Assembly (NCBI RefSeq): GCF_017355185.1
Contig: NZ_JADILJ010000031.1
Coordinates: 1 to 42,248, forward strand
Source of the DNA: Rathayibacter sp. SD072
Lineage (GTDB): Bacteria; Actinomycetota; Actinomycetes; Actinomycetales; Microbacteriaceae
Direction of reading: 5' to 3'
Length of the DNA: 42,248 nt
In this document: in pieces, positions 27,762 through 38,272 of the stretch
Numbering within the stretch: the first letter of the stretch is position 1
How the letters are laid out: every line of letters begins with the position of its first letter
The notes under the pieces: model-generated
What the model was told of the DNA's origin: nothing
The model's input: the letters and a program-made list of their open reading frames with translations, nothing else
The model's database searches: none
Made by a program: the position numbers and the translations under genes

Positions 27762-27786
27762 GGTCAACCGGTTCGCCTCCTATGAT
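27762..27786 (+). promoter_or_regulatory. GntR-type operator and -10 before the SDR-apnL operon
   Basis: GGTCAACCGGTTCGCC (27762-27777) shares GTCAACCGGTTCG with the inverted copy at 31895-31908 and GGTCAACCGGT with the copy at 31939-31949. Three bases later TATGAT (27781-27786) is a near-perfect -10, so the operator occupies the spacer of this promoter. AAGGAGA at 27804-27810 is the ribosome binding site of the SDR gene. A protein bound here would repress the promoter. Confidence 0.8.
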
Positions 27787-27816
27787 CGAGCTGGATCGAC
27801 TCGAAGGAGAGCACGC

Positions 27817-28569
27817 ATGACCGGACGCCTCATCGGCAAGAACGCCCTCGTCACCGGAGCCGGCTCCGGCATCGGCCGGGCCGTCGCGGAGCGGTTCGCC
27901 CGCGAAGGGGCCCGCGTGGCCTTCACGGACCGGGACCTCGACGCGGCGCGCGACGCGGCCGGCGCCTACCCGGATGCTGTCGCCGTCGCGCTCGACATCT
28001 CGGACGAGGCGAGCGTCGAGGCCGCCTTCGCACAGCTCGACGCGGACGGCCGCGCTCCCGACGTCGTCGTCGCGAACGCGGGCGTGCAGCTCTTCGGCCA
28101 GGACGCGAAGATCGCCGACCTGAGCCTCGAGGCGTGGCGCAGGACGATCGACATCAACCTCACCGGCACCTTCCTGACCGTGAAGCACGCGGTCAGGGCG
28201 ATGCGGGGCCGCGGCGGCTCGATCGTCCTCACCGGCAGCCCCACGGGACTGAACGGCGAGGGCCAGGATTTCACCGCCTACAGCAGCTCCAAGGCCGGCA
28301 TCCACGGCCTCGGCCGCACGGTCGCCGCCGCCTACGCCGGCGAGGGCATCCGCGTGAACACCGTGGTGCCCGGCTACACCGAGACCCCGCTGGTGACCGC
28401 GATCTCGGGGGACGCCGAGGCGCGCGCCGCGATCGTCTCGCGGATCCCGATCGGGCGACCCGGCTCGGCCGAGGACGTCGAGGGCATCATGGTCTACCTC
28501 GCGAGCGACGAGTCCTCGTACGCCACCGGCGCGCTCTTCCGCGTCGACGGCGGCATGACGACCCTGTGA
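27817..28569 (+). CDS. SDR family oxidoreductase, candidate D-apiose dehydrogenase
   Basis: A 250-residue classical short-chain dehydrogenase. The cofactor site TGAGSGIG is at 13-20, D40 at the end of the second strand (FTDRD) favours NAD, NAG is at 87-89, and the catalytic S141, Y155 and K159 (TGSPTG, YSSSKAG) are all present, so it should be active. The stop is 2 bases before apnL and a GntR-type operator precedes it, which links it to D-apionate breakdown. The best-placed role is oxidation of D-apiose to D-apionolactone, the substrate of ApnL. The described apiose dehydrogenase is, to my knowledge, a Gfo/Idh/MocA protein, so this role is inference from context. Confidence 0.9.
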   Translation: MTGRLIGKNALVTGAGSGIGRAVAERFAREGARVAFTDRDLDAARDAAGAYPDAVAVALDISDEASVEAAFAQLDADGRAPDVVVANAGVQLFGQDAKIADLSLEAWRRTIDINLTGTFLTVKHAVRAMRGRGGSIVLTGSPTGLNGEGQDFTAYSSSKAGIHGLGRTVAAAYAGEGIRVNTVVPGYTETPLVTAISGDAEARAAIVSRIPIGRPGSAEDVEGIMVYLASDESSYATGALFRVDGGMTTL

Positions 28570-28571
28570 CC

Positions 28572-30374
28572 ATGGGGCCGATCGGAATAAGCCCCGCCGC
28601 CCCGACGATCCCGGCCGCGCTGCTGCTCCCGGCCGAGCGCGACGAGCGGGAGGTGCGCTGCGGCCCGTGGGCGCTGCGCAGCGCCGAGGGGCGGCTGGAC
28701 GAGATCCGCTTCGAGGGCGCGCGGATCCTCCGAGGAGTGCGGTTCGTCGTGCGCGACCGCGACTGGGGGACGTTCGCGACCACGCGCGCCGACCTGAGGG
28801 CGGAGGAGGACGAGCTCGTGATCGAGGGCATGAGCGAGGGCGGTGGCGCCCGCGTCGAGTGGATCCTGCGCGCGCGGTTCGAGGAGTCGACCCTGATGCT
28901 CGCGCTCGAGGCGCGCGCCGCCACCGCGCTGCTGCGCAACAGACTCGGTCTCGTCGTGCTGCACCCGGCGGACGCGGCAGGCGCGCCGCTCGAGGTCCTC
29001 CGCACCGACGGTTCCCTCGAGCAGACGCGGTTCCCGGCGCGCATCGCCCCGCATCAGCCGGCCCGCGACATCGCCGGTCTCGCGTGGACGGCGAGCGGAG
29101 TGGCGGTGACGGCGGCGTTCGACGGCGACGTCTTCGAGATGGAGGACCAGCGCAACTGGACGGACGCGTCGTTCAAGACGTACTCCACTCCGCTGGACCG
29201 GCCGTTCCCGGTCGCGGTGGCCGAGGGGGAGGTCGTCCGGCAGAGCGTCCGGATCGAGTGCTCCGGGACGCCGACCCCGGCGAAGGCCGAACCGGACGGG
29301 CTGCGCCTCGCGCTAGCCGGGCACGCGTTCCCCGAGATCCTCACGGGGGCGTCGAGCGCACCGTCGGCGGCTCGACCGGCAGAGAGCTGGATCGGCCGCG
29401 TCGGCCTGCTCGTGGAGTGCGACCCGCGCTGGGCGGGTTGGCGGCGGGCACTCGCCCGCGCCCTCGAGGACGCGCAGGAGCGGAGCATCGACCTCCGGAT
29501 CGTCGCGGCGGAACCGGACGATGTCGCGCGGGTCCTCGGCGCCGTCGGGGACGCTCCGCTCGCCCGCCTCGGCGTCTACGCCGCGCACGGGCACCGCAGC
29601 ACCCCCGAGCTGCTTGACGCGGCCCGGCGCGCGGTGGGCGGGACGGGGGCCGAGGTGCTCGGCGGCGTCCGCTCGCACTTCACCGAGCTCAACCGGGGAG
29701 CGCAGGAGCTCGCCGTCGTCGACGCTCCGCTCGCCTTGAGCCTGACCGCCTTCATGCACGACACCTCGGGGCACCAGCTCGTGGAGTCGCTCGGGACCCA
29801 GCGCGCGGTCGTGCGGGACGCCCTGGCGATCGCCGACGGCCGTCGACTGCGCATCGGCCCGGTCACACTCGGGGCGCGGATGAACGCGGTCTCGACGTCG
29901 CCGTTCGACCCGGGGGACGCCGACATCGACGCCCACGGCTACGGACCGCAGCACCTGCCCGGCGCGACCGACCCGCGGCAGTCCTCGCCGGCGCTCGCCG
30001 CGTGGGTCGTGGGGAGCGTCGCCGCGCTGGCGCAGCCCGGCGTCGACTCGCTCGCCTACTTCGAGGAGTGGGGACCCCGCGGGGCATCCGGCACACCGGC
30101 GGGCCGGGTGCTGGAGTGGGCCGCCGAGATCGGCGGCGGCGAGGTCGTGACCGTCGACGCGGCTCCGCTCCCGCTGGTGGCGATCGGCGTGCAGCGGGAG
30201 GGGGAGCAGCTGCTCCTCGTCGGCAACCTCGGCGCCACCGGGATCGAGCCGTCGTGGGACGGCGTGCACGAGTGGCGGCGGTCGCTCGACGGCTCCCTCG
30301 GCGTCGGCCCGCTCCGACTGGCTCCCGGCGAGGCCGCCCGCGTCGTGCGGAGGGCTCAGCCCAGCGGCGTGTAG
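28572..30374 (+). CDS. apnL: D-apionate lactonase
   Basis: The 600-residue protein resembles the D-apionate lactonase family, which hydrolyses D-apionolactone to D-apionate. An N-terminal beta-rich region (about 1-265, with GPWALRSAEGRLDEIRFEGA) is followed by a TIM-barrel-like middle (GRVGLLVECDPRWAGWRRAL near 275-295, GGVRSHFTELNRG near 364-376, FMHDTSGHQLVESLGTQRA near 393-411) and a small C-terminal beta domain ending near the stop. DPRQSSPALAAWVVGSVAAL and SLAYFEEWG are further family-like segments. It starts 2 bases after the SDR stop, so the two are coupled. The 3' end overlaps the convergent DUF4232 gene by 19 bases. I know no signal peptide here; it is cytoplasmic. Confidence 0.82.
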   Translation: MGPIGISPAAPTIPAALLLPAERDEREVRCGPWALRSAEGRLDEIRFEGARILRGVRFVVRDRDWGTFATTRADLRAEEDELVIEGMSEGGGARVEWILRARFEESTLMLALEARAATALLRNRLGLVVLHPADAAGAPLEVLRTDGSLEQTRFPARIAPHQPARDIAGLAWTASGVAVTAAFDGDVFEMEDQRNWTDASFKTYSTPLDRPFPVAVAEGEVVRQSVRIECSGTPTPAKAEPDGLRLALAGHAFPEILTGASSAPSAARPAESWIGRVGLLVECDPRWAGWRRALARALEDAQERSIDLRIVAAEPDDVARVLGAVGDAPLARLGVYAAHGHRSTPELLDAARRAVGGTGAEVLGGVRSHFTELNRGAQELAVVDAPLALSLTAFMHDTSGHQLVESLGTQRAVVRDALAIADGRRLRIGPVTLGARMNAVSTSPFDPGDADIDAHGYGPQHLPGATDPRQSSPALAAWVVGSVAALAQPGVDSLAYFEEWGPRGASGTPAGRVLEWAAEIGGGEVVTVDAAPLPLVAIGVQREGEQLLLVGNLGATGIEPSWDGVHEWRRSLDGSLGVGPLRLAPGEAARVVRRAQPSGV

Positions 30375-31081
30375 GTCGACGCCTCGAGCACGACCGTGCC
30401 GTCGGTGCACACCTCGAGGGCGGCCGGAGCGCTGACCGCGGGATCGAGGTCGTCGACGACCTCGGCGACGATCCGGGCGGAGACGGCGGAGGGGCAGCCG
30501 TAGGCGCCGGGGGAGTGGCGGACGACGCGGACCTCGGCCCGGCCGGCGGGCTGCAGGGTGAGCAGGCCGCCCGGGTTCGGACCGACCGCGGCGGCGACCG
30601 CGCCGATGCGCACGCCGTCGGCGTCCGTCGGGTAGACGCCCGGGATGCCGGCGAGGGTGCACGGCAGCGACGACACGTTGGTGAAGACGAGGTCGAACGC
30701 GCTGGAGCCGGCGCCGGAGGCCTCGGGATCGGGGAGGTACTCGAGCGAGAGGTCGCCCCCGTGGCAGCGCGCGACGGGAGCGGGAGCGGGCGCGGCCGGA
30801 GCCGGTGCCTCCGGGACCGATGCCTCAGGAGCAGGCGCTGCGGGGGAGGGCGCGATCGGGGAGGCGGTGGGCTCCTCCGGAGTCGGCGTCGCATCGGGCG
30901 TCGCCGTCGATGCCGGAGTCGGCGTCGCGCTCGGTGTCGCCGTCGGCGACGCGCTCACCGGCGTGGGGAGCGGCGTCCGGGGGGAGGCGACCTCGGCGCG
31001 ACCCGCGCAGCCGGCGACCAGGAGGAGGGAGGCGGCGACCGCGAGCACCGCAGCGCTCGACCGGCCCAGGAGGGACGACAT
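30356..31081 (-). CDS. DUF4232 lipoprotein
   Basis: A 241-residue secreted lipoprotein. The N-terminus has a basic start, a hydrophobic stretch and the lipobox LVAGC with the modified Cys25. Residues 30-105 form a linker rich in P, T, A and S, suited to crossing the cell wall. The C-terminal domain (CHGGDLSLEYLPDPEASGAG, LVFTNVSSLPCTLAGIPGVY) is DUF4232, a family of extracytoplasmic actinobacterial proteins of unknown role with conserved cysteines. It lies between apnL and gntR but points opposite to apnL; no link to apionate metabolism is evident. Confidence 0.88.
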   Translation of the reverse strand: MSSLLGRSSAAVLAVAASLLLVAGCAGRAEVASPRTPLPTPVSASPTATPSATPTPASTATPDATPTPEEPTASPIAPSPAAPAPEASVPEAPAPAAPAPAPVARCHGGDLSLEYLPDPEASGAGSSAFDLVFTNVSSLPCTLAGIPGVYPTDADGVRIGAVAAAVGPNPGGLLTLQPAGRAEVRVVRHSPGAYGCPSAVSARIVAEVVDDLDPAVSAPAALEVCTDGTVVLEASTYTPLG

Positions 31082-31109
31082 GCGCCGAGTCTGCCACCGT
31101 CCGCGCGGG

Positions 31110-31844
31110 TCAGCTCCCCGAGTCCGCCAGTCGGCGCGAGGCGGTGCTCATGTGCGACTCCATCGCCCGCGCGGCCGCGGCCGGATCGCGCGCCTCGAGT
31201 GCCTCCAGCACGGCGCGGTGCTCGGCGAAGGCGTCGCGCGCCTGCTGCGGGTCGCTGAGCGCGCGCTCGACCCACAGCCGCAGCAGCGAGCGGATGGTCT
31301 GCAGCAGGTCGCGGAGCACCACGTTGCCGCAGCTGACCGCGATCTGCAGGTGGAAGCGGACGTCGGCCTCGACGAAGGCCGCGAGGTCGTCCAGGTGCGA
31401 CTCCATCGCGTCCAGGTGCGCGCGCAGCTTCGCCAGATCGGCGTCCTCGATGCGGAGTGCCGCGAGCATCGCCGCCTGGATCTCGAGCCCGCTCCGCACC
31501 TCGATCAGCTCGGCCGTGCGGCCGGCGGAGAGCATCAGCCCCCAGCTCAGCGTCGTCGGCAGGAGCTCCGACGTGCTGTCGCGGAGGTAGGTGCCGGAGC
31601 CCGGGCGCACCGTGACGATGCCGAGGATCTCGAGCGCCGCGAGGGCCTCGCGCACGGCCGAGCGGCCCACTCCGAGGCTCTCGGCGAGCTGGCGCTCGGG
31701 GGGCAGGCGCGATCCGGGTGCCAGATCACCCGTGGTGAGGAGGGAGGTCAGCTGCTTCGCCACTTCGGCGACCGCGGTGCCGCGGGGGAGCACCTGGAGC
31801 TCCAGGCGCACGAGGGACGGGTCGTCTTCGGGATACGCCGGCAT
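31110..31844 (-). CDS. FadR-subfamily GntR regulator, probable regulator of the apionate genes
   Basis: A 244-residue GntR protein of the FadR group. The winged helix is at about 25-88 (LAPGSRLPPERQLAESLGVG, RSAVREALAALEILGIVTVR, PGSGTYL). The FCD effector domain follows, with the metal-binding-type pattern D..H (EADVRFHLQIAVSCGN) and late histidines (EHRAVLEALEARD, AMESHMSTASRR). The ATG at 31844 follows a TACGGT element by 6 bases. It is divergent from the MFS gene, with GTCAACCGGT sites between, and another copy stands before the SDR-apnL operon. FCD regulators usually sense small acids; D-apionate or an intermediate is a reasonable ligand by inference. Confidence 0.9.
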   Translation of the reverse strand: MPAYPEDDPSLVRLELQVLPRGTAVAEVAKQLTSLLTTGDLAPGSRLPPERQLAESLGVGRSAVREALAALEILGIVTVRPGSGTYLRDSTSELLPTTLSWGLMLSAGRTAELIEVRSGLEIQAAMLAALRIEDADLAKLRAHLDAMESHLDDLAAFVEADVRFHLQIAVSCGNVVLRDLLQTIRSLLRLWVERALSDPQQARDAFAEHRAVLEALEARDPAAAARAMESHMSTASRRLADSGS

Positions 31845-31894
31845 GCGACGACCGTAGCAACGGCTCGCGTGGGGCAGGAGACGCCACGCGACAG

Positions 31895-31908
31895 CCGAAC
31901 CGGTTGAC
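31895..31908. promoter_or_regulatory. GntR-type operator O1 between gntR and the MFS gene
   Basis: CCGAACCGGTTGAC is the inverse of GTCAACCGGTTCGG, identical over 13 bases to the site before the SDR gene. It overlaps the -35 hexamer TTGACA of the MFS promoter. Confidence 0.78.
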
Positions 31909-31932
31909 ACTTGCGGCGGAACGGAGCATCAT
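31904..31932 (+). promoter_or_regulatory. Promoter of the MFS-lerK-derI-lerI-oiaC-apnO operon
   Basis: TTGACA (31904-31909) is a consensus -35, and CATCAT (31927-31932) 17 bases later is an acceptable -10. Transcription would begin near 31939, at the edge of operator O2, and run through a leader of about 65 bases to the GTG at 32006. Confidence 0.65.
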
Positions 31933-31936
31933 CGAA

Positions 31937-31956
31937 TTGGTCAACCGGTCAGCCAA
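31937..31956. promoter_or_regulatory. GntR-type operator O2
   Basis: TTGGTCAACCGGTCAGCCAA is an inverted repeat with 14 of 20 positions symmetric and ACCGGT at its centre. It covers the predicted transcription start of the MFS operon. With O1 about 45 bases away, cooperative binding is possible. Confidence 0.78.
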
Positions 31957-32005
31957 TTTGGCCCGGTACCCCAACACAGTCGTTGACAAGGATCTGGAGA
32001 TCGAC

Positions 32006-33385
32006 GTGGACCTTCCCTCTCAGACCACCGCCGGTGGTCCGGCCGCGGCCGACGCCGCCGTCGAGAAGAGCGCGATCAGGAAGATCTCGGTGCGCCTCGT
32101 GCCGTTCGTCGCCCTGATGTTCTTCATCAACTACCTCGACCGCACGGCGATCGGCTTCGCCGCTCCCAACGGCATGGAGGCCGATCTCGCCCTCTCGGCG
32201 GCCCAGTTCGGCTTCGCCTCCGGCGTCTTCTTCATCGGCTACATCCTCCTCGAAGTGCCCAGCAACCTGGCGCTGCACCGCTTCGGCGCGCGCCGCTGGC
32301 TCGCCCGCATCATGGTGAGCTGGGGCGTCGTGGCGCTGCTGTTCACGTGGGTGCAGAACTTCGAGCAGCTGGTGGTGCTCCGCTTCCTGCTCGGAGTCGC
32401 GGAGGCAGGCTTCTTCCCCGGCGCGATCCTGTTCCTCAGCCTCTGGGTGCCGGCGAAGCACCGCTCCAAGATCCTCGCGCTCTTCTACCTGGCGCAGCCG
32501 CTCACCACGGTCATCGGCGCTCCGCTCGCGGGTCTCCTGATCGAGCAGGACGGCATCTTCGGCCTCGAGGGCTGGCGCTTCATGTTCCTCGGCGTCTCGC
32601 TCCCCGCGATCGTCGTCGGACTCATCGCCTGGTTCTACCTCAAGGACAAGCCTTCGGACGCCAAGTGGCTCACCCGTGAGGAGCAGGTCTGGCTCACGAC
32701 GGCGCTGCAGCGCGAGGAGGACGTCAAGACCAAGGGCGTCACGACCCACCCGAAGATGTCCTCCGCCTTCAGGAGCGGCCGCGTCTGGATGCTGAGCTTC
32801 GTGTACTTCGGCTTCATCTACGGCCTCTACGCGCTGGCGTTCTTCCTCCCCACGATCATCGAGGGCTTCCAGGAGCAGTACGGCACCACGTTCGGCATCT
32901 TCGAGAAGGGCCTGATCACCGCGATCCCCTACGTGCCCGCGGCTATCGCGCTCTACCTCTGGTCGCGCGATGCGACGCGTCGCGGGGTGCGCACCTGGCA
33001 CATCGTCATCCCGGCGATCGCCGGTGGACTGAGCATCCCGCTCGCGCTGTTCGCCGGCTCGCCGGCCGCGACGATCGCCGTGATCACGGTCACCGCGATG
33101 GCGATCTTCTCGGCCCTGCCCAACTTCTGGACGTTCCCGACCCGCTTCCTCACGGGAGCGGCCGCGGCGGCCGGCATCGCCCTGATCAACACGGTCGGCA
33201 ACCTCGCCGGCTTCTCGGCGCCGTACATCACCGGAGCCCTGAGCGACGCGACCGGCGGCTACGAGATCCCGATGTTCGTCGTCGGCTTCTTCCTGCTGCT
33301 CTCGGCCGTGCTGATGGCACTGCTCGCGCGGCGCTACAAGGACGCTCCGCTGGACGCTCCGAGCGTCGACGTGATCGCCCACTGA
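32006..33385 (+). CDS. MFS transporter, anion:cation symporter (ACS)-like
   Basis: A 459-residue, 12-helix major facilitator. After a short cytoplasmic start the first helix carries NYLDRTAIGFAAPNG (about 42-56), the mark of the ACS group that imports hexuronates, glucarate, tartrate and similar acids. LLEVPSNLALHRFGARRWLA is the loop 2-3 motif. The GTG at 32006 has GGAG six bases upstream and removes an unlikely N-terminus. It is the first gene of the operon leading to apnO and is divergent from gntR. The cargo is inferred to be D-apionate, D-apiose or a related compound. Confidence 0.88.
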   Translation: MDLPSQTTAGGPAAADAAVEKSAIRKISVRLVPFVALMFFINYLDRTAIGFAAPNGMEADLALSAAQFGFASGVFFIGYILLEVPSNLALHRFGARRWLARIMVSWGVVALLFTWVQNFEQLVVLRFLLGVAEAGFFPGAILFLSLWVPAKHRSKILALFYLAQPLTTVIGAPLAGLLIEQDGIFGLEGWRFMFLGVSLPAIVVGLIAWFYLKDKPSDAKWLTREEQVWLTTALQREEDVKTKGVTTHPKMSSAFRSGRVWMLSFVYFGFIYGLYALAFFLPTIIEGFQEQYGTTFGIFEKGLITAIPYVPAAIALYLWSRDATRRGVRTWHIVIPAIAGGLSIPLALFAGSPAATIAVITVTAMAIFSALPNFWTFPTRFLTGAAAAAGIALINTVGNLAGFSAPYITGALSDATGGYEIPMFVVGFFLLLSAVLMALLARRYKDAPLDAPSVDVIAH

Positions 33386-33419
33386 CGCCCACCGCCGCCA
33401 CCACGAGAAGGACCCCGAG

Positions 33420-35168
33420 ATGACCCGGCTCTACAACGACCCCTCCGATTTCGCCGATGAGATGATCGACGGATTCGCCGCCGCGAACCGCCGCTTCGTG
33501 CGGCGCGTGCCCGGAGGAGTGGTGCGCTCGACCGAGGTCGCCCCCGGAACGGTCGCGCTCGTGGTCGGCGGCGGCTCCGGCCACTACCCGGCCTTCGGCG
33601 GGCTGGTCGGCCAGGGCCTCGCGCACGGCGCGGCGATGGGGAACCTCTTCGCCTCTCCGTCCGCGCAGCAGGTCCACTCGGTCGCCACGGCCGCCGAGCA
33701 CGGGGGCGGCGTGCTGCTGAGCTACGGCAACTACGCGGGAGACGTGCTGAACTTCGACGCGGCGCAGCGGCGCCTGCGCGACGAGGGGATCGACGTCCGC
33801 ACCGTCACGGTCACCGACGACATCTCGAGCGCCGACGTCTCCGAGAAGCAGAAGCGCCGCGGCATCGCAGGCGATCTGACGGTCTTCAAGGTCGCCGGAG
33901 CCGCCGCGGAGGAGGGCGCGTCCCTGGACGACGTCGAGCGCCTCGCGATCCGCGCCAACGAGCGCACGCGCTCCTTCGGCGTCGCGTTCTCGGGCTGCTC
34001 GCTGCCCGGGGCGTCGGAGCCGCTGTTCACCGTCCCCGAGGGGCGGATGGCCGTCGGCATGGGCATCCACGGCGAGCCCGGCATCCGCGAGGACGACGTG
34101 CCCTCGGCCGACGGACTCGCCGAGCTGCTGGTCGAGTCGCTCCTCGCCGAGCGCCCGGACGACGTCGCCGAGCTCGAGGGGGCGCGACTCGTCGTGATCC
34201 TCAACGGCCTGGGCTCGGTGAAGTACGAGGAGCTGTTCGTCGTCTACTCGGGCGTCGAGCGCCGCCTGCGCGAGCGCGGCGTCGAGATCGTCGAGCCGGA
34301 GGTCGGCGAGCTGGTGACCAGCTTCGACATGGCCGGCGTCTCGCTCACCTTCTTCTGGGTCGACGAGGAGCTCGAGCGGCTCTGGGCGGCTCCCGTCGAG
34401 ACGCCCGCCTACCGCAAGGGCGCCGTCCGCGCCGCCGCCCAGGTGGCGGAGCAGGCGGTCGTCGAGAGCGCCCGAGCAGAGATCGGAGCCTCCAGCGAGG
34501 AGTCCCGCGCCGCGGCCGGCACCGTGCTCGCGGCCCTCGAGGCGACGCAGCGCGTGATCGACGAGAACGCCGACGAGCTCGGTCGGATCGACGCGGTCGC
34601 CGGTGACGGCGACCACGGCATCGGGATGCAGCGCGGGGTGCACGCGGCCGTCGCAGCCGCCCGGGCCGCCCACGAGGAGCGAGCGGGAGCCGGCACCGTG
34701 CTCGACGCCGCCGGCGACGCCTGGTCGGACCGCGCGGGCGGCACCTCCGGAGCCCTCTGGGGGGCGGCACTCGGCGCGGTGGGCGCGGCTCTCGGAGACG
34801 AGGGCCGGCCCGATGCGGCCGCGGTGCTGACCGGAGTCATCGGTGCCCGGACCGCGATCCTCGCCTTCGGCGCGAGCGTCGGGGACAAGACGATGGTCGA
34901 CTCCCTCGTGCCGTTCGCCGACGTGCTCGGCGAGCGGATCGGCGCGGGCGTCTCCCTCGCCGACGCCTGGACCCGTGCAGCCGAGGCCTGCACCGACGCC
35001 GCTGCCGCCACCGCGCAGCTGCTGCCCCGGATGGGCCGCGCCCGCCCGCACGCCGAGAAGAGCCTCGGCACCCCCGACGCGGGCGCGCACTCGCTCGCCC
35101 TGATCGTCACCGCCGTCGGCGCCGTGCTCCGCGAGAGCGCAGCCATCCCGTCCAGCACCGACGCGTAA
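33420..35168 (+). CDS. lerK: Dihydroxyacetone-kinase-family kinase, probable L-erythrulose kinase
   Basis: A 582-residue single-chain DhaK-DhaL protein. The DhaK half has [15 protein letters not shown] at 50-64 and [10 protein letters not shown] with His217, the residue that binds the carbonyl substrate covalently. The ATP-binding DhaL half begins near 370, with [11 protein letters not shown] supplying metal-binding aspartates and GGTSGALWG after it. By context the substrate is L-erythrulose from OiaC, giving L-erythrulose-1-phosphate, as for LerK in described D-apionate and tetritol pathways; dihydroxyacetone is the alternative. It starts 34 bases after the MFS stop with GAGAAGGA as ribosome binding site. 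Confidence 0.85.
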
Positions 35169-35206
35169 CGTCGCACACCGTCACCCGCCAGCAAGGAGAG
35201 AGCACC

Positions 35207-35710
35207 ATGAGCGCACCGTTCCGCATCGTCGTCGGATCCGACGACGCCGGTTTCACCTACAAGGAGATCATCAAGGCCGATCTCGAGAAGGACGCGCGCG
35301 TCGCGACCCTCATCGACGTGGGGGTCGACGCCGACTCCCACACCCCGTACCCCAGCGTCGCCATCGCCGCCGCCGAGATGATCGCCCGCGGCGAGGCCGA
35401 CCGAGCCGTGCTGATCTGCGGCACGGGACTCGGCGTCGCCATCGCGGCGAACAAGGTCGCGGGAGTCCGCGCCGTCACCGCGCACGACTCCTTCTCGGTC
35501 GAGCGCTCGATACTCTCCAACGACGCGCAGGTGCTCTGCATGGGCCAGCGCGTCGTCGGCATCGAGCTCGCCCGCCGCCTCGCGAAGGAGTGGCTCGGCT
35601 ACGAGTTCGACACCTCCTCCGCCTCGGCCGAGAAGGTGCAGATCATCGAGGCGTACGAGGAGGGCCGCGCCGACGAGGCTCCGGTCTCGTCCTCGCCCGC
35701 GTCGTGCTGA
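35207..35710 (+). CDS. derI: RpiB/LacA-B family isomerase, probable D-erythrulose-4-phosphate isomerase
   Basis: The 167-residue protein belongs to the RpiB family of sugar-phosphate isomerases. [16 protein letters not shown] at 8-23 (where RpiB has D-H-A-G), Cys71 in [15 protein letters not shown], and [26 protein letters not shown] form the active site. In this operon the likely reaction is D-erythrulose-4-phosphate to D-erythrose-4-phosphate, as reported for DerI and EryI homologues; ribose-5-phosphate isomerase activity is the alternative. AAGGAGAGAG precedes the ATG, and the 3' end overlaps the next gene by 7 bases. Confidence 0.87.
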
Positions 35711-36498
35711 CCCCGGACGCCTCGCCCGCCTTCACCGTGGGCGTGAGCCTGAAGATGTACTTCGGTCACGAGCGCACCCTGGAGTGGAGCCGCCGCGTCG
35801 TCGAGATCGCGCGGGTCCACGAAGCGGTGACGTCGGGAGTGGTCGAGCTGTTCGTCGTGCCGACGTTCCCCGCGCTCGTGCCGGTCGGCGCGGTCGTCGA
35901 CGGCTCCGGAGTCGCCCTCGGCGCCCAGGACCTGTTCTGGGAGGACGCGGGTGCGTTCACCGGCGAGGTGAGCGGCTCCGAGCTCCGCGAGATCGGCTGC
36001 CGCCTGGTCGAGATCGGCCATGCCGAGCGCCGCGCGCTCTTCGGCGACGACGACGAGCGGATCCGGCTGAAGGTCGCCGCCGCGTTCCGCAACGACCTCG
36101 TGCCGCTGCTCTGCGTCGGCGAGACCGAGCGCGGCAGCGTCGACGACGCCGTCTCCCTCGTACTCGCCCAGATCTCGTCGGCGCTCGAGGCGGCCGACGC
36201 CGCGGGCTCGACCGGCCCGGTGCTCGCGGCCTACGAGCCCGTGTGGGCGATCGGTGCTCCCGAGCCGGCCGAGCCCTCTTTCATCGCCGGAGTCGTCACC
36301 GCCCTCGAGGAGGCGCTCGCCGCGCTCCCTGGTCGCGCAGGCAGCCGCGTGATCTACGGCGGGAGCGCCGGGCCGGGTCTGCTGACCGCGCTCGGCGGCC
36401 GCGTCCCCGGACTCTTCCTCGGCCGCTTCGCGCACGACCCAGAGGCCGTGCGGACGATCCTCGACGAGGCGCTCGCGCTCGCGGAGGCCCGCCCGTGA
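35704..36498 (+). CDS. lerI: Triose-phosphate-isomerase-like protein, probable L-erythrulose-1-phosphate isomerase
   Basis: A 264-residue TIM homologue with the catalytic triad intact: K17 in GVSLKMYF, H106 in IGHAERR and E178 in [17 protein letters not shown] forms the phosphate site. The lysine motif reads S-L-K where genuine TPI has N-x-K, a change known in the L-erythrulose-phosphate isomerase branch. The role by context is L-erythrulose-1-phosphate to D-erythrulose-4-phosphate. The GTG at 35704 overlaps the derI stop; its own stop overlaps the oiaC start as GTGA. A housekeeping tpiA should exist elsewhere in the genome. Confidence 0.86.
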
Positions 36499-37313
36499 CG
36501 ATCGGACTCAGCAGCTACGCCTTCTTCTGGCGCTCCTGCGACCGGGTGCCGGAGCCGATGAGCGTCGAGGACATGGTGCGCGAGACGGCCGATCTCGGCG
36601 TGGGCCTCCTGCAGCTGTGCGATGTGCCCGGCCTCGAGGAGTTCCCGGCCGAGCGGCTCGCCGCGCTGCGCGAGCTCGCGGCGGGCAGCGGCGTCGCCCT
36701 CGAGCTCGGCACGCGCGGCACGGATCCCGAGCACCTGCGCCGCTGGCTCGGGATCGCCCGCGCGCTGGACGTCGTGCTGCTGCGCAGCATGTGGACCTCG
36801 GGGGAGGACCGTCCCGGCCGCGAGGAGACGCTGCGCCGGCTCCGGAGCATCTCGCCCGAGCTCGAGGCGGCGGGCGTCACGCTCGCGCTCGAGACGTACG
36901 AGCAGGTGAGCACCGCCGACCTCGTCGACGTCGTCGCGACGCTGGACGATCCGCGGATCCGGATCTGCCTCGATCCCGCCAACACGGTCGCGAACCTCGA
37001 GCTGCCGGCCGACGTGGTCGCGCGCTGCGCCCCGTACGTCGCCAACTGGCACGTCAAGGACTTCGACTTCTGCCGCAACCCGGGCTGGGTCGGCTTCGTC
37101 TACACCGGCACCGCCCTCGGCGACGGCCGCCTCGACTACGACGGCTTCCGCGCGCTGCTGGATCCGGACGCGCGCGGCATCACCCAGATCATCGAGTTCT
37201 GGCTCCCCTGGCAGGACACCGTCCCCGCCGCGGAGCAGGCGCTCGTCACCACCCGGCTCGAAGCCGAGTGGACCCGCACCACCCTCGACCAGCTCAGGAG
37301 AAGGAACCCATGA
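36495..37313 (+). CDS. oiaC: Sugar-isomerase-like TIM-barrel protein, probable 3-oxo-isoapionate decarboxylase
   Basis: A 272-residue protein of the xylose-isomerase-like (AP endonuclease 2) TIM-barrel family. The divalent-metal ligands are visible: E133 (LALETYEQ), D160 (ICLDPAN), H186 (NWHVKDF) and E234 (QIIEFWLPW). FFWRSCDRVPEPMS at 10-23 and NPGWVGFVYTGTALGDG resemble the OiaC group. Within this operon the expected reaction is decarboxylation of 3-oxo-isoapionate to L-erythrulose, which the next upstream genes then use. GTG overlaps the lerI stop; the 3' end overlaps apnO as ATGA. An epimerase on another sugar is the main alternative. Confidence 0.82.
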   Translation: MTIGLSSYAFFWRSCDRVPEPMSVEDMVRETADLGVGLLQLCDVPGLEEFPAERLAALRELAAGSGVALELGTRGTDPEHLRRWLGIARALDVVLLRSMWTSGEDRPGREETLRRLRSISPELEAAGVTLALETYEQVSTADLVDVVATLDDPRIRICLDPANTVANLELPADVVARCAPYVANWHVKDFDFCRNPGWVGFVYTGTALGDGRLDYDGFRALLDPDARGITQIIEFWLPWQDTVPAAEQALVTTRLEAEWTRTTLDQLRRRNP

Positions 37314-38200
37314 CCGACACCACCGCCACCACCGCCCCGGGCACCGCCGCCCCCGCCCTCACCGTCGCCGTCATCGGCGCCGGCGGCAAGATGGGCATGC
37401 GGGTCTCGAACAACCTGCAGAAGTCCGACTACAACGCCCTCTACAGCGAGGCCTCGCCCGCCGGGCAGGAGCGCACCCGCGAGGCCGGCCGCGAGATCAC
37501 CGCGACGCCCGACGCCGTCGCGGACGCCGACGTCGTGATCCTCGCCGTCCCGGACGTCGTGCTCGGCGCGGTGTCGGAGGACGTGATCCCGCAGATGAAG
37601 TCGGGCGCGATCATCCTGACCCTCGACCCGGCCGCGGCCTACGCGGGGCTCCTCGCGAAGCGCGAGGACATCCACTACGCCGTGGCGCACCCGTGCCACC
37701 CGTCGGTGTTCCTCGAGCGCACCACCCCGGAGGAGTGGGCCGACACGTTCGGCGGCATCGCCGCTCCGCAGGAGGTCGTCGCGGCCCTCGAGGACCCGGA
37801 CGACGACGTGCGGGCGATCGCCGAGAAGGTCATCTCGACCATCTACGCGCCCGTCATCGCGGTGCACTGGGTGACCGTCAAGCAGCTCGCCGTGCTCGAG
37901 CCGACCCTGGTCGAGACCATCGCCTGCATGGTGGGCGAGTTCCTCAAGGAGGCGCTCGACGAGACCGTCAACGGCGTCGGCGTGCCCTACGAGGCGGCCC
38001 GCGCCATGCTCTACGGCCACACCTGGATCGCGCTGACCAACGGGCTGCGCGGATCGAACCCGTTCTCGGAGGCCTGCCACATCGCCATGGGCTACGGCCG
38101 CGAGGCGCTCATCAAGGACGACTGGAAGAAGATCTTCGACGACTCCGAGCTCGACTCGGTCATCGCCAAGATGCTGAAGATCGACGCCGTGAAGCGCTGA
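37310..38200 (+). CDS. apnO: D-apionate oxidoisomerase
   Basis: A 296-residue NAD-binding protein. The Rossmann motif GAGGKMG is at 23-29 (VAVIGAGGKMGMRVSNNL), VVILAVPDVVLGAVSEDVIP follows, and HYAVAHPCHPSVFLERTT is a segment characteristic of this phosphogluconate-dehydrogenase-like group; the C-terminal helical domain has EGFLKE-like GEFLKEALDETVNGVGVPYE. ApnO couples oxidation with a 1,2 rearrangement, turning D-apionate into 3-oxo-isoapionate. It follows oiaC with an ATGA overlap and ends the operon at a strong hairpin. A 6-phosphogluconate-dehydrogenase label from automated tools would be misleading. Confidence 0.85.
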   Translation: MTDTTATTAPGTAAPALTVAVIGAGGKMGMRVSNNLQKSDYNALYSEASPAGQERTREAGREITATPDAVADADVVILAVPDVVLGAVSEDVIPQMKSGAIILTLDPAAAYAGLLAKREDIHYAVAHPCHPSVFLERTTPEEWADTFGGIAAPQEVVAALEDPDDDVRAIAEKVISTIYAPVIAVHWVTVKQLAVLEPTLVETIACMVGEFLKEALDETVNGVGVPYEAARAMLYGHTWIALTNGLRGSNPFSEACHIAMGYGREALIKDDWKKIFDDSELDSVIAKMLKIDAVKR

Positions 38201-38212
38201 CGATCGACCGGG

Positions 38213-38272
38213 GGAACCCCGGACGGTCGAGGGAACCCGCACTTGCAGGCTCCCTCGAGCGTCCGGGGTTCC
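38213..38272. terminator. Long hairpin at the end of the apnO operon
   Basis: Bases 38213-38234 pair with 38251-38272 in a 22-bp stem with one mismatch, around a 16-base loop. It sits between convergent genes 13 bases after the apnO stop and can terminate both. Confidence 0.85.

Follow-up and report, generated by a model that had tools for sequence, protein, structure and literature searches.

A predicted two-module D-apiose regulon with a putative SDR-type first enzyme in Rathayibacter sp. SD072

The locus described here probably represents a two-module D-apiose regulon, which would lead from D-apiose or D-apionate to D-erythrose-4-phosphate, a known pathway in a new host. It is located in a window of 42,248 nucleotides, i.e. 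the whole stretch of DNA that was analysed, which corresponds to one entire contig (G000:C43; GC content of 72%) of a 3.88-Mb assembly in 117 contigs. The first-pass annotation had proposed an apionate pathway involving OiaC and then LerK, LerI and DerI, and this reading is still the best one, as synteny and co-occurrence speak for it and the units share an operator. The eight proteins that it named are all encoded in the interval, with profile matches to the families stated, but its list left out an SDR dehydrogenase, here proposed to act first in the pathway (Table 1).

Table 1. Features of the putative D-apiose locus, with positions in the window and supporting evidence
Feature	Position	Strand	Evidence
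Operator core GGTCAACCGGTT before SDR-ApnL unit	27762..27773	.	Only exact match in window, 0 in 100 shuffles
SDR dehydrogenase, proposed D-apiose 1-dehydrogenase	27817..28569	+	adh_short_C2; ApnL adjacency; co-occurrence; N114/S141/Y155/K159 conserved
ApnL-like, proposed D-apionolactone hydrolase	28572..30374	+	NF049900 204 bits, under 750 cut-off
Small ORF between both units	30356..31081	-	Lipoprotein-like by first residues
GntR/FCD regulator, proposed apiose-regulon regulator; start uncertain	31110..31910	-	GntR and FCD domains over cut-off
Operator AATTGGTCAACCGGTCAGCCAATT between regulator and MFS	31935..31958	.	24-mer consensus; PWM; 20-mer search
MFS transporter, ACS/galactonate type, proposed D-apionate importer	32006..33385	+	MFS_1; TIGR00893 under cut-off
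DhaK-DhaL kinase, proposed LerK (L-erythrulose kinase)	33420..35168	+	Dak1, Dak2; NF011049 over cut-off
RpiB-type isomerase, proposed DerI	35207..35710	+	LacAB_rpiB; RPI_actino over cut-off; DerI model under cut-off
TIM-type isomerase with S-L-K, proposed LerI	35704..36498	+	TIM; K17/H106/E178 conserved
AP2-type TIM barrel, proposed OiaC (3-oxo-isoapionate decarboxylase)	36495..37313	+	AP_endonuc_2; E133/D160/H186/E234 conserved
ApnO-like, proposed D-apionate oxidoisomerase	37310..38200	+	PGDH_C; PDB 5t57 E 1.3e-66

Two adjoining units are present in the window, namely, SDR-ApnL-like (27817-30374) and MFS-DhaKL-RpiB-TIM-AP2-ApnO (about 32006-38200), the gene of the GntR/FCD regulator being divergent from the latter. 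The start of the MFS gene is uncertain, the longest ORF beginning at 31904. The last four genes overlap by 4 to 7 nt, and the overlapping starts and stops reported earlier from derI to apnO could be read directly: the RpiB stop at 35710 lies beyond the TIM GTG at 35704, the TIM stop at 36498 beyond the AP2 GTG at 36495, and the AP2 stop at 37313 beyond the ApnO ATG at 37310. The OiaC-type AP2 TIM barrel therefore sits in the same operon as ApnO, as indicated by its AP_endonuc_2 match, the 4-nt overlap and synteny. The small minus-strand ORF between the two units has no NCBIfam match. This gene arrangement is not due to chance, since the same order is found on two Erwiniaceae plasmids and recurs in many actinobacterial loci.

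The genes with their order and conserved residues, their co-occurrence and the shared sites were observed, and we infer the following reactions, substrates and mode of regulation. In the upper module, the SDR would oxidise D-apiose at C1 to a lactone, which would be opened by ApnL to yield D-apionate. In the lower module, the MFS protein would take up D-apionate, ApnO would oxidise and rearrange it into 3-oxo-isoapionate, OiaC would decarboxylate the latter to L-erythrulose, and LerK would phosphorylate this product, the last steps to D-erythrose-4-phosphate being ascribed to enzymes of the LerI and DerI types, roles proposed for the TIM and RpiB proteins. The GntR/FCD protein would bind sites located upstream of each module and of the genes of an ABC sugar importer that lie on a different contig, and would most likely act as a repressor, relieved by an intermediate of the pathway.

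When profile models were used to name each enzyme, a check suggested in the first-pass annotation, the only enzyme-specific matches were those for ApnL and DerI, both under their cut-offs, and none of the NCBIfam matches of the window proteins named ApnO or OiaC. NF049900 (D-apionate lactonase) is the only NCBIfam match of the ApnL-like protein (204 bits, E 3.7e-60), below a curated cut-off of 750 bits that is also missed by the Paracoccus ApnL relative (672 bits); the model matched each of the 20 relatives of ApnL that make up alignment A1. For the ApnL-like protein of the window (28572-30374), Pfam gave nothing at E 0.001, and no PDB sequence matched below E 0.7. The RpiB protein passed RPI_actino (204 bits for a cut-off of 168) and scored 138 bits with the DerI model (cut-off of 240), and the best subfamily of the MFS protein, TIGR00893, reached 275 bits for a cut-off of 395. 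The kinase, in which DhaK and DhaL are fused in one protein of 582 aa, and the TIM protein matched general families; genes of the LerK, LerI and DerI types are therefore present at the family level only. The family models matched by the SDR are generic, and it stayed below the cut-off of every one of them. The ApnO-like protein matched PGDH_C (E 1.6e-57) as well as PDB 5t57, which we take to be an ApnO. The conserved residues of Table 1, whose roles are presumed from the respective families, were retained in at least 97% of the aligned hits for TIM (59), AP2 (78) and SDR (96), each set including duplicates.

A second TIM encoded elsewhere in the genome outscores the operon copy (290 vs 165 bits), which is consistent with a specialisation of the latter. 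The genome also harbours a second DhaKL-RpiB pair (L163 8724-11747, G000:C13), 65% and 74% identical to that of the window, which adjoins a regulator-like ORF and where nothing matched the type of TIM found in the window; kinase and isomerase identity alone therefore says little. As profile models alone do not prove enzyme names, the proposed names would designate families rather than final functions, and synteny and co-occurrence were used in addition.

D-apiose dehydrogenase (ApsD) is a Gfo/Idh/MocA protein, whose gene adjoins that of ApnL in Proteobacteria, and no close relative of it was found in the window. The SDR looks like a non-orthologous replacement of this enzyme, and we think that it is the sugar dehydrogenase of the pathway. 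To examine distribution, 199 genomes of the host's family, sampled evenly out of a larger set, were searched with thresholds of E 1e-20 for ApnO and E 1e-75 for the SDR clade. ApnL is present in 40 genomes and the SDR in 38, and the two ApnL genomes without SDR are G056 and G057, the latter having an SDR fragment. This co-occurrence has a Fisher p of 7.9e-39, relatedness being ignored; counted per genus, SDR and ApnL are found in 24 and 25 out of 85, respectively. ApnO was detected in 47 genomes, including 39 of the 40 with ApnL, and OiaC likewise in 47. Eight genomes possess ApnO with neither ApnL nor SDR, and in L061 and L065 the place of a full OiaC branch beside ApnL is taken by OiaK/OiaX-like genes, L061 having an AP2 match in addition. 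We read the lower apionate module as one that can stand alone, and to which the upper apiose module (SDR and ApnL) is added.

Such solitary lower modules, found in eight family genomes and on two plasmids, would also suit an organism that uses D-apionate only, the SDR doing something else and D-apiose being oxidised by a dehydrogenase encoded elsewhere. We regard this as improbable: all 38 SDR genomes have ApnL, the SDR gene ends 2 nt before the ApnL-like gene in the window, and the host genome has no close Gfo/Idh relative, the best match reaching E 2.4e-21 at 30% identity.

The neighbourhood of ApnL agrees with a D-apiose module starting with the SDR. Of the 40 loci of the family search (39 genomes besides that of the window), 34 have the SDR gene at no more than 600 bp from ApnL; two of these 34 pairs are divergent, and one SDR is a 55-residue fragment. 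The 80 best of the 578 named and confirmed ApnL loci form a set that overlaps with the former; in 61 of them a member of the SDR clade occurs within 3 kb of ApnL, and in three a Gfo/Idh protein does (from Latescibacterota, Gemmatimonadetes and Flavobacteriaceae), with both in none and neither in 16. The closest of these listed named loci are from Rathayibacter, so that a link with plants fits. In 72,556 plasmid records, the SDR had no match at 1e-50, with Gfo/Idh matched in 241 (1e-60) and ApnL in 236 (1e-5). The putative SDR-type first enzyme is probably new, as far as the literature searched goes; neither an SDR-type apiose dehydrogenase nor an apiose operator was found in the available portions of the openly licensed literature, which does not imply their absence from print.

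Other neighbours of ApnL were noticed. In L081 (8879-11893) and L139 (9054-11473), an SMP-30/gluconolactonase gene adjoins ApnL, with operator sites close by and no SDR beside ApnL. In L148 (8562-11656), a nearly perfect operator palindrome stands before an aldo-keto reductase gene, which precedes ApnL, and a rhamnosidase-type gene lies on the other side; this reductase may represent yet another type of enzyme for the first step, the third. Four Arthrobacter loci (L115, L142, L145 and L146) carry ApnL-like genes beside other genes, the SDR and lower module being absent from the fetched stretch, and L115 displays an operator site 45 nt before ApnL.

With regard to regulation, generic GntR half-site patterns gave little, and the operator came from a k-mer count. 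A 24-mer within seven mismatches of the consensus AATTGGTCAACCGGTTGACCAATT is present in 58 of 71 regulator upstream regions, a number that includes duplicates between two fetches. The site at 31935 was recovered as a 20-mer with three mismatches (0 in 100 shuffles), and this search returned no other site in the host genome. The sites at 27762 and C86:5038 are half-conserved and were found by core searches. The former has TATGAT after it, a hexamer that by eye resembles a -10 element, and keeps the same position in each of the four further loci from this genus that were compared. Over distinct loci, with 13 duplicates and one cut locus left out, the 10-mer core occurs within 250 nt before the SDR in 28 of 44 separate units, for a background of 0.019 per 250 nt, in 3 of 36 loci with the SDR after ApnO, and in one of five in the small classes; eight of the 16 separate units without it have the SDR downstream of ApnL. 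The PWM gave 236 hits on both strands of 2.36 Mb vs 2 in 1.09 Mb of shuffled sequence that kept base composition only. As it was trained on regulator-side sites, hits there are circular, whereas those before the SDR and ABC genes are not.

The ABC sugar importer (L186, G000:C86, 578-5038) is the orthologue of that of a Paracoccus apiose locus (59%, 48% and 55% identity), and its binding protein is 59% identical to the Paracoccus one, the next best match being at E 1.1e-16. The operator core at C86:5038, just before the first importer gene, is the only one in the 12 kb read. Since the core stands ahead of three units (regulator/MFS, SDR-ApnL and this importer), import, oxidation and catabolism are predicted to form one regulon on two contigs, which may be new; from their position, we infer that the sites are bound by the neighbouring GntR protein.

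The sugar itself cannot be fixed by sequence, the ApnL-like protein is divergent, and the SDR resembles only generic families, so the upper module could act on another sugar, the acid entering the same lower route, or have a broad sugar specificity. This is somewhat less probable still than the use of D-apionate alone, as the product of the upper module has to feed ApnO, and the importer under the same operator is orthologous to one found beside Gfo/Idh and ApnL in Paracoccus.

The OiaC branch of the oxidative D-apiose pathway was reportedly described by Carter et al. in 2018. Genes of the ApnL, ApnO, OiaC, LerK, LerI and DerI types occur together in that system as in the window, which differs by having an SDR where the Gfo/Idh/MocA D-apiose dehydrogenase stands, and by its GntR/FCD regulator and operator. 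The plasmids of Erwinia E602 and Pantoea At-9b carry MFS-DhaKL-TIM-AP2-ApnO in the same order with 46-71% identity (63% to both copies for the kinase, 46% to both for AP2, 67% and 65% for the ApnO-like protein). In contrast to the window, rpiB is located nearby on the other strand (47-48% identity) and the regulator is of another type; no SDR or ApnL match was found in the plasmid stretches fetched. The Paracoccus TOH plasmid groups ApnL-like, Gfo/Idh, ApnO and annotated OiaX genes with the ABC importer, its OiaK match reaching 441 bits (under a cut-off of 700). This OiaK/OiaX variant shares ApnL, ApnO and, on another contig of the host genome, the importer orthologue, but its first enzyme is a Gfo/Idh protein, and OiaK/OiaX have no match within the window. 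The marine isolate LCG007, which grows on D-apiose, is reported to have a gene set of the Paracoccus TOH kind (PMC11747546), and the oxidative pathway of Carter et al. 2018 is cited in PMC6302742. A non-oxidative route for the same sugar exists in Pectobacterium and some E. coli, and involves an isomerase or putative oxidoreductases, a kinase and transketolases in place of apionate chemistry (PMC13001218).

The conversion of L-erythrulose-1-phosphate to erythrose-4-phosphate by LerI and DerI is described in PMC10733421. LerK, LerI and DerI are known there from tetritol catabolism and the kinase, TIM and RpiB match general families, but a lower operon devoted to tetritols or tetroses (erythritol, threitol, erythrulose), with ApnO- and AP2-like proteins using other substrates, is the least probable reading of all, given that the proteins of the interval that were scanned included no recognisable tetritol dehydrogenase, that ApnO and OiaC belong to the same transcription unit and nearly always occur together (46/47 genomes), and that ApnL neighbours ApnO/OiaC in many loci.

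The host genome has two matches to Apiosidase PF13204, on C98 and C76, both outside the window (52 and 45 bits, cut-off of 26.5), and on C76 (L171, 1997-4731) a nucleoside-hydrolase-like gene overlaps the end of the Apiosidase-like gene. The nucleoside-hydrolase-like protein is present in 21 of the 199 genomes, 17 of which have ApnL (p 1.9e-10, relatedness ignored). Among 20 loci fetched, three adjoin SDR-ApnL (L166, L167 and L177), four, all of the window's genus and including that on C76, adjoin a relative of the C76 Apiosidase-like protein, and most have neither neighbour; the core stands just before the gene in one (L167). In some relatives, the operator was seen to precede a nucleoside-hydrolase-like gene or an alpha-L-rhamnosidase-type gene. 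The nucleoside-hydrolase-like protein is a speculative candidate apiofuranosidase that would free apiose. A broader proposal, namely that Actinobacteria possess an unnamed SDR-type D-apiose 1-dehydrogenase replacing Gfo/Idh, a GntR/FCD regulator with this consensus operator, and a nucleoside-hydrolase-like regulon member as a new kind of apiofuranosidase, is put forward tentatively and seems rather doubtful.

In the pectin rhamnogalacturonan II, borate forms its cross-links through the branched sugar apiose (PMC8820409). The locus, read as above, places the oxidative route for this sugar in many actinobacteria of leaves and soil, and the enzyme type predicted to start the route would be a second one, unrelated to Gfo/Idh. 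The regulator site could be used to find apiose importers and glycosidases.
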